From IMG/VR virus record IMGVR_UViG_3300008108_000133, positions 1 to 59,086 of that record: a stretch of DNA of 59,086 nt. One strand, 5' to 3'. This document shows, piece by piece, positions 11,509 through 55,967 of this stretch. Positions within the stretch are counted from its first letter, which is position 1, and each line of letters begins with the position of its first letter. The stretch comes from a virus. The notes beneath the pieces are model-generated. The model saw only the letters and a list, made by a program, of their open reading frames with translations. It ran no database searches and was not told the DNA's origin. The translations under genes were made by a program, and so were the position numbers.

Positions 11509-11640
11509 GTTAAGGATTACAACAATCTCTTAACACTTGTGCTCCCGTTAACCGAGACCTATGGGAGGGTAAATACGTCTCTCATATCCGCACTGGAGGG
11601 TGGTGCGGAGCATAACGATACCAGTTCGTCCCCCCGAACT
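11509..11640 (+). ncRNA. Structured psbA 5' leader (candidate regulatory RNA)
   Basis: Between promoter and ATG are several perfect helices: GTTAAG 11509-11514 with CTTAAC 11529-11534; CTCCC 11542-11546 with GGGAG 11563-11567; GAGAC 11554-11558 with GTCTC 11577-11581, interleaved with the previous pair as an H-type pseudoknot; CCGCAC 11588-11593 with GTGCGG 11603-11608 around a GGAGG-containing loop; and AGTTCG 11623-11628 with CGAACT 11635-11640. PhotoRC RNA motifs are known in this position before psbA in marine cyanobacteria and phages; membership is not proven here. Confidence 0.5.
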
Positions 11641-55434: not shown

Positions 55435-55452
55435 TTGTAACAAAAGTTACAA
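55435..55452. promoter_or_regulatory. NtcA-type binding site (GTA-N8-TAC)
   Basis: TTGTAACAAAAGTTACAA is a perfect inverted repeat containing GTA-N8-TAC at 55437-55450, the consensus of the cyanobacterial nitrogen regulator NtcA. It lies directly before a sigma70 promoter. The distance from TAC to the -10 at 55482 is 31 nt, longer than the usual about 22, so the mode of action (activation or repression) is uncertain. Confidence 0.65.
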
Positions 55453-55458
55453 AACTTT

Positions 55459-55487
55459 TTGCATAACTATAGTAACAGGTCTATAAT
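55459..55487 (+). promoter_or_regulatory. Sigma70-type promoter of the riboswitch transcript
   Basis: TTGCAT (55459-55464), a 17-bp spacer and TATAAT (55482-55487). Predicted start near 55494, right at the first base of the riboswitch. Confidence 0.7.
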
Positions 55488-55494
55488 GACCTTA

Positions 55495-55582
55495 CGTTCA
55501 TCTGGAATACCAGACGGAAGTAAGCCGACGCGGAACGGATTCGTTCATCCCATATGGGACGCAAACGCCGACTGAAGGAACG
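55495..55582 (+). ncRNA. Glutamine riboswitch (glnA/Downstream-peptide type), apparently tandem
   Basis: Aptamer 1: CGTTC (55495-55499), TCTGG/CCAGA hairpin (55501-55514), the conserved CGGAAGTAAG (55515-55524), GAACG (55533-55537). Aptamer 2: CGTTC (55542-55546), TCCC/GGGA hairpin, CGCAAACGCCGACTGAAGGAACG to 55582. These match the CGUUC...CGGAAGUA...CUGAAGGAACG pattern of glutamine-binding RNAs of cyanobacteria and phages. A single longer aptamer using the outer CGTTC and final GAACG is also possible. It sits in the leader of a YRGV peptide gene; ligand inferred from the family. Confidence 0.78.
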
Positions 55583-55613
55583 CTCTTTAGCCTCAAAATT
55601 AAGGAGAACCCTA

Positions 55614-55751
55614 ATGTCTAAAGTAGTTTATCGTGGTGTCGAATATGATACACAGAAGCGTCTGGAGTATCAACAACAAATGATGCAACAACCTCAACAG
55701 TACAATGAAACCTATCGTGGTGTTAAGTTTGTAAAGGAGGGGCACAAATGA
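55614..55751 (+). CDS. Riboswitch-controlled small YRGV-motif peptide (DUF4278-like)
   Basis: 45 residues from ATG 55614, which has AAGGAG at 55601-55606; an ATG at 55554 would start inside the riboswitch and is rejected. Two copies of a YRGV(E/K)(Y/F) motif (VVYRGVEYDT and ETYRGVKF) resemble the DUF4278 repeat found in cyanobacteria. It is the 'downstream peptide' expected after this riboswitch class. Function unknown; nitrogen-related by regulation. Confidence 0.75.
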   Translation: MSKVVYRGVEYDTQKRLEYQQQMMQQPQQYNETYRGVKFVKEGHK

Positions 55752-55846
55752 AAAAATTGAACGTACTTCAACTCATTAAAGAGCAGAAGCAAAAGGAACA
55801 ACGTCGTTATCAAGCACTCCTTGCAAATGCTGGAGCGGGAAAATGA
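55748..55846 (+). CDS. 32-residue helical peptide
   Basis: ATG coupled to the preceding stop (ATGA). A Lys/Gln/Glu helix and an Ala/Gly end (LLANAGAGK). AAGGAGG lies 8-14 nt upstream. Probably translated from the riboswitch transcript. Function unknown. Confidence 0.55.
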   Translation: MKKLNVLQLIKEQKQKEQRRYQALLANAGAGK

Positions 55847-55929
55847 TTGCTACGATTGCTGCCATTACTGGAGCATCAACAGCATTTATTTTTCTAATAT
55901 ATTTGGAAATTTTGTTGTTGAGTAAATAA
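55843..55929 (+). CDS. 28-residue hydrophobic peptide
   Basis: ATG coupled to the upstream TGA. One transmembrane helix (residues 2-26) with almost no polar residues, as in very small photosystem or cytochrome subunits, but without a recognisable match. Last gene before the terminator. Confidence 0.5.
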   Translation: MIATIAAITGASTAFIFLIYLEILLLSK

Positions 55930-55937
55930 ATTTTTTA

Positions 55938-55967
55938 AGAGAGGGACTTGACTCCCTCTCTTTTTTT
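55938..55967 (+). terminator. Intrinsic terminator
   Basis: AGAGAGGGA/TCCCTCTCT, 9 bp with a six-base loop, then a run of T. Ends the riboswitch transcript unit of three small genes. Confidence 0.9.

Follow-up and report, generated by a model that had tools for sequence, protein, structure and literature searches.

The leader of a small-protein operon in T4-like cyanophages is built from two predicted glutamine aptamers placed back to back, and at 95/116 loci among the matches listed, one or both of these aptamers carry a complete small gene in place of the P2 hairpin loop. Riboswitches are usually treated as non-coding leaders; here, complete genes under selection appear to lie inside predicted ligand-binding aptamers, and the start codon, C-terminus, and stop codon of the nested gene are written into the aptamer helix and core. 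The DNA analyzed in this work, referred to as the window, is a 59-kb virus fragment (59,086 nucleotides) that encodes S-adenosylmethionine decarboxylase, thyX, and phoH, all T4-like cyanophage genes, near the site of interest. Its leader represents the compact/compact state and carries no nested gene. Taken whole, our explanation, in which the window holds the compact form of a T4-like cyanophage leader whose nested-gene alleles make aptamer folding and nested translation mutually exclusive, is in our judgment probable. The features of the window are collected in Table 1.

Table 1 Features of the leader and micro-gene unit in the window.
Feature	Position	Strand	Basis or remark
NtcA-type box GTAACAAAAGTTAC (GTA-N8-TAC)	55437-55450	+	Sequence; conserved in relatives
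Sigma70-like promoter TTGCAT-17-TATAAT	55459-55487	+	Sequence; scanner gives overlapping TTTGCA-18-TATAAT
Inverted repeat AGGTC-TATAAT-GACCT directly 5' of aptamer 1	55477-55492	+	Same place in most relatives
Predicted aptamer copy 1 (P1 55495-99/55533-37, P2 55501-05/55510-14)	55493-55539	+	RF01739, 26.5 bits, E 8e-4
Predicted aptamer copy 2 (P1 55542-46/55578-82, P2 55548-53/55554-59), compact	55540-55586	+	RF01739, 36.5 bits
Predicted hairpin CTCTTTA/TTAAGGAG over the Shine-Dalgarno of the 45-aa ORF	55583-55606	+	RNAfold with and without aptamer constraint
45-aa YRG(V) microprotein, DUF4278-like	55614-55751	+	PF14105, 19.1 bits; phrog_5049, E 1e-10
32-aa micro-ORF (MKKLNVLQLIKEQ...)	55748-55846	+	Start overlapped as ATGA; similar ORFs after the leader in about 20 relatives
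28-aa hydrophobic micro-ORF	55843-55929	+	ORF only
Intrinsic terminator	55937-55962	+	10-bp stem and U-run

Both aptamers of the window are closed by CGTTC/GAACG, as a preliminary description of this DNA had proposed. The CGGAAGTA core that it assigned to both copies is found in copy 1 only; copy 2 reads CGCAAACG and lacks the CGGAAGUA core, and the core of the second aptamer (A2) deviates from the consensus in compact alleles of relatives too. The preliminary description had pointed to the Rfam models glnA (type 1, RF01739, gathering score 35 bits) and Downstream-peptide (type 2, RF01704, gathering score 33 bits). The first of these matches the window, with copy 2 above the gathering score and copy 1 below it. 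Type 2 was rejected, as copy 2 scores 23.4 bits against RF01704, below both that cut-off and its own RF01739 score. Cyanophage isolates span 26.6-35.6 bits for RF01739 and 24.6-28.8 bits for RF01704. Covariation, which had been proposed as a check on both helices, is borne out for P2 in compact as well as nested leaders: in the first aptamer (A1), all 46/46 distinct compact P2 arms from relatives among the matches listed show covariation, with up to four pair types at one position. P1 is invariant among relatives and thus silent on covariation.

Phage scores that straddle the Rfam cut-off (26-36 bits) would suit a structured RNA that serves translation or stability and resembles the glnA motif but does not sense glutamine. 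We regard this explanation as quite improbable: the best copy lies above the curated cut-off, cyanobacterial glutamine riboswitches are associated chiefly with DUF4278 (PMC6316151), and a conserved NtcA-type box ties the locus to nitrogen. Covariance models and position-specific conservation support a predicted tandem glutamine riboswitch that stands between an NtcA-type box and an operon of small proteins. In a SAR86 genome (L157), seven glutamine aptamers are found in clusters of two or three.

The perfect GTA-N8-TAC palindrome noted in the preliminary description is present upstream of the aptamers and well kept in relatives. Its extended form, GTAAC-N4-GTTAC, occurs once in the window versus 0.02 copies expected from dinucleotide shuffling. 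Among the matches listed, 85/111 loci have GTA-N8-TAC no more than 75 nt 5' of aptamer 1, against 6.2 expected, with a position peak at -62 to -58 from aptamer 1; control windows farther 5' contain it in 24/934 cases. The box is thus conserved in these relatives at a fixed promoter distance, as in NtcA-regulated promoters. The sigma70-like promoter is also present as described. A transcription start on the first base of the aptamer, which had been claimed with it, is one possibility, because relatives conserve TTGMNTAWATA and a covarying inverted repeat in this region and not a strict sigma70 -10 element. TTGMNTAWATA is late-promoter-like, occupies the -35 position, and lies at about -37; TAWATA itself is found within 75 nt 5' of aptamer 1 in 103 relatives among the matches listed, mostly at -35 to -31, and the match in the window is inexact. 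The inverted repeat around the -10 varies in sequence between phages (GTGTTA/TAACAC, AGGGG/CCCCT, and others) and ends 0-4 nt before aptamer 1. The published cyanophage late promoter reads NATAAATA, and the middle mode of expression has been attributed to an overlap of early with late promoters (PMC2984593). A late-type start would put a hairpin at the 5' end of the RNA, and the inverted repeat is perhaps such a hairpin. Elsewhere in the window, at positions 11531-11623, lies a PhotoRC-II RNA (RF01717, 76.2 bits), an element known upstream of cyanophage psbA.

The output of the leader, given in the preliminary description as a 45-residue YRGV peptide, two further micro-genes, and a terminator, is confirmed in all its parts (Table 1). 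The 45-aa protein scores below the PF14105 gathering threshold of 25.3 bits and proteins at the same locus in relatives exceed it (25.7 and 27.1 bits), which is why we call it DUF4278-like. A protein with the YRG motif follows the leader in 111/116 loci among the matches listed, and this downstream family has a dN/dS of 0.14 (ungapped pairs at 2-25% divergence, among the matches listed). Homology to PirA was considered and dropped: the profile matches DUF4278, the N-terminal domain of IF17, and marine picocyanobacteria are reported to lack PirA. The idea that the helix of the second micro-ORF is an IF7-like GS-binding helix finds no profile support and was likewise rejected. This helix (LQLIKEQ...) forms a separate gene in the window; some relatives carry it fused behind the YRG module and others place it ahead of that module, a modular micro-gene fusion (L027:2553-2681; L005:1626-1769; L085). 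In relatives L022, L038, L096, L109, and L119, aptamer 2 is separated from the DUF4278 gene by ~30 extra nt (GGAACACGGATCACTCGAAAGAGTTAAAGGTG...), which possibly form an extra hairpin. In the window, the predicted hairpin over the Shine-Dalgarno of the 45-aa ORF is suggestive only of a hidden ribosome-binding site. The same hairpin is predicted in the free and the aptamer-folded RNA, so it does not explain the expression platform of the window.

A search of phage records for the leader returned 155 records, mostly cyanophages. More than 100 viral contigs carry the same leader, as do at least 13 genomes of cyanophage isolates; therefore, the leader of the window is not a chance find. Scanning IMG/VR for the 25 bases that form the 3' half of aptamer 2 yielded at least 120 stretches. 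The matches listed, combined with previously located loci, comprise 116 distinct leaders in which the second aptamer is readable; they stem from an exact-pattern search and are not a random sample. Among these matches, the A1/A2 states are compact/nested in 64 loci, nested/nested in 24, compact/compact in 16, and nested/compact in seven, with A1 unreadable in five. Nested genes occupy 92/116 second aptamers and 31 first aptamers, making 123 nested ORFs among the matches listed.

The split arrangement is seen in isolates as well. Aptamer 2 is split in four of the six isolates read first (DSL-LC03, S-SRM01, S-CREM1, DSL-LC02, S-PM2, and P-SSM2), with halves CGTTCATCTATGG... and ...ATAGACGCAAAAGCCGACTGAAGGAACG standing ~140 nt apart and a complete ORF between them. 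Seven more isolates comprise four with a split leader (P-HM1, S-SSM7, P-SSM7, and S-T4), of which P-HM1 has both copies split, and three compact ones (Bellamy, P-TIM68, and S-CAM7). In P-SSM2 (AY939844; L008:1537-1683), the ORF nested in aptamer 2 is unannotated, and its equivalents are annotated in related records. Rfam finds the compact copy in isolates and never the split copy, so the identity of split copies rests on identical half-sites, on P2 covariation, and on the compact alleles found at this position. A tree built from the downstream gene places the window in a supported clade (98/93) of nine near-identical DUF4278 genes whose leaders include all four states, compact/compact, compact/nested, nested/compact, and nested/nested. 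Nested genes are therefore gained and lost while the aptamers and the DUF4278 gene persist.

The nested genes are placed in a precise register with the predicted aptamer. The coding insert in the P2 loop measures 130-230 nt, and in all 123 nested ORFs among the matches listed, the A of the ATG falls at P2 position 4-7, so that the AUG sits in, or at the inner end of, the P2 5' strand. At the other end, 89/92 nested A2 ORFs among the matches listed terminate at a TGA or TAA within the aptamer core, giving the C-terminus DAKAD or DAKVD, and the other three stop inside the P2 3' strand. For A1, 14/31 nested ORFs among the matches listed end in the core (GRK-stop), and the rest reach their stop codon within the P2 3' strand or immediately 5' of it. 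Such placement bears on the explanation that the P2 loop is a tolerated docking site, with genes uncoupled from the ligand and the repeated aptamer arms serving as recombination sites for micro-gene exchange. The presence of all four leader states in the clade of the window, and of related proteins in A1 of one phage and A2 of another (L015 and L091), is what exchange of this kind would produce. A passive docking site, however, needs neither a start fixed at P2 position 4-7 despite the length of the loop nor ORFs that run through the core to its stop codon, as nearly all A2 ORFs do. We hold a docking site to be possible but do not favor it.

P2 is predicted to pair across the nested gene. Among the 38 distinct nested A2 arm pairs in the matches listed, P2 pairs 1-5 are standard in 38, 38, 38, 37, and 36 cases, and shuffling partners reduces the variable pairs 3-5 to 31, 20, and 18 of 38; the support for pairing and covariation across the insert is strong, although these counts are not formal probabilities, as the shuffles ignore shared ancestry. 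The codon before DAKAD (ATA, TGG, AAG, AGG, GAG, GTA, and even TAG or TAA) tracks the non-coding partner strand of P2, and the residue at this position is set by RNA pairing. When P1 is held in RNA folding, P2 forms in 84/92 nested A2 aptamers and at least two bases of the AUG are paired in 75/92 (both among the matches listed). Formation of P1 and P2 in nested alleles is predicted to cost ~0.5 kcal/mol, and codon-shuffled inserts cost more. Pairing of the ORF end beyond P2 exceeds that of swapped controls (0/200 permutations), a difference confounded by shared ancestry and protein constraint.

These data also weigh on a second alternative, in which split copies no longer bind ligand, their halves are kept because they code for protein or act as translation signals, and glutamine is sensed by the compact copy alone. 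Rfam recovers the compact copy alone in nested loci, and the off-consensus A2 core, even in compact alleles, fits such a loss. Nevertheless, P2 covaries across the insert although one of its strand positions is non-coding and lies 5' of the start codon, compact alleles retain the identical core despite its having no coding role there, and the 24 loci among the matches listed with both copies split would have no sensor left. We consider loss of binding unlikely.

Pooled dN/dS is 0.18 for A1 genes and 0.18 for A2 genes among the matches listed (ungapped pairs, 2-25% divergence, with aptamer-core codons excluded), and the ratio is below 1 in 216/217 pairs of these nested sets. Third codon positions take 57-61% of changes in nested and downstream genes among the matches listed. 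These substitution patterns in the aligned ORFs show purifying selection on the nested genes. Their products match phrog_504, phrog_6471, and phrog_13397 (E down to 1e-30), three PHROGs of unassigned function, and have a hydrophobic N-terminus and two conserved cysteines ~33-36 residues apart. AlphaFold predicts a helical hairpin (pLDDT ~94 in the hairpin) whose N-terminal helix is hydrophobic, and the A2 family is similar; a search with the predicted fold found no significant PDB match.

Gene nesting looks specific to this phage leader. Ordinary type-1 aptamers, sampled in other viral contigs by a scan for their 3' half, are compact in 121/121 cases, and no gene-sized P2 insert was found in the cyanobacterial and proteobacterial genomes sampled, whose readable cases are compact or have 46-87-nt loops; in this sample, ordinary phage and host glutamine riboswitches therefore do not host genes. 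The possibility that the nested genes are host genes was rejected as well, with phrog_504 found in 0/386 cyanobacterial genomes and 5/5 positive controls recovered in phages. The phage-type aptamer core pattern was also found in 0/386 cyanobacterial genomes. Type-2 glutamine riboswitches occur in 32/292 genomes of a similar draw from the same phylum, indicating that picocyanobacteria were included. Some cyanobacterial type-1 aptamers, at host loci such as L132, L148, and L169, have an extended P2 loop, with 46-87 nt up to the P1 arm, which offers a possible route to gene insertion.

If the leader of the window works like the riboswitches of host gifB and PMM1846, binding of glutamine would switch the microprotein on, and NtcA would couple transcription to 2-oxoglutarate, either positively or negatively. 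In nested alleles, the folded aptamer would mask the nested start codon, as the folding predictions suggest. A translating ribosome would have to open P2 and cover the core, and at the nested stop codon, which lies within a few bases of the P1 3' arm, it would cover that arm too. On the simplest reading, ligand and ribosome would then be mutually exclusive occupants of the same RNA, and the nested gene would not be translated while the aptamer is folded around glutamine, so that low glutamine would favor the nested gene or genes and high glutamine the DUF4278 protein. A gene-in-aptamer toggle of this kind, in which P2 encloses a cistron and masks its start and one RNA turns one metabolite into opposite outputs, is a credible but tentative proposal. 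Host nitrogen signals, 2-oxoglutarate via NtcA and glutamine via RNA, would in this arrangement be placed before phage microproteins related to a domain of a glutamine synthetase inactivating factor. The nested layout accounts for the surroundings of several PHROG families of unassigned function and shows that split aptamers escape standard covariance searches. It also means that translation and metabolite sensing can be tested directly for competition within one RNA.

The preliminary description held the pairing of tandem aptamers with NtcA to be undescribed, which is partly right, as each ingredient is known. Glutamine riboswitches of the glnA type were described in tandem in 2010 (PMC2864571), NtcA sites were present in all 16 cyanophages then examined (PMC3037559), and glutamine riboswitches have been reported in cyanophages (PMC9964418, PMC9602691). 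In hosts, gifB and PMM1846 each join a DUF4278 gene to a glutamine riboswitch and to regulation by NtcA, with glutamine activating the downstream gene (PMC6316151). The sensor class is thus known, and the nested-gene form appears new; our literature search of freely accessible papers found no report of a gene inside a riboswitch aptamer.

Among known systems, RF01739, which includes the Synechocystis gifB leader, shares with the window the P1/P2 architecture, the core, tandem copies, and the link to DUF4278 and an NtcA promoter. The phage leader differs in being phage-borne, in the core of copy 2, and in that P2 of its relatives holds whole genes. RF01704, as in Prochlorococcus PMM1846, likewise has a small DUF4278 gene downstream and an NtcA motif in its promoter (PMC6316151), and is set apart by the low score of copy 2 given above. 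Glutamine synthetase inactivating factor IF17 (gifB) of cyanobacteria, of which DUF4278 is the N-terminal part, is also under glutamine riboswitch and NtcA control; unlike IF17, the phage DUF4278-like product is merely 45 aa long. The annotated glnA riboswitch of S-CREM1, which has the same leader and gene as the window, and the Melnitz-type methylophage riboswitch are likewise glutamine riboswitches in T4-like phages. Both are reported as single elements, and the accessible parts of those reports mention neither nested genes nor an NtcA box, nor any link to DUF4278. Structured RNAs that house a gene in a peripheral loop are familiar in the form of group I and group II introns with loop ORFs and of HEARO RNA, which are self-splicing or nuclease-guide RNAs, unlike a ligand-binding aptamer. 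In the cyanophage leader, by contrast, the start and stop codons sit in the predicted riboswitch aptamer's own helix and core.
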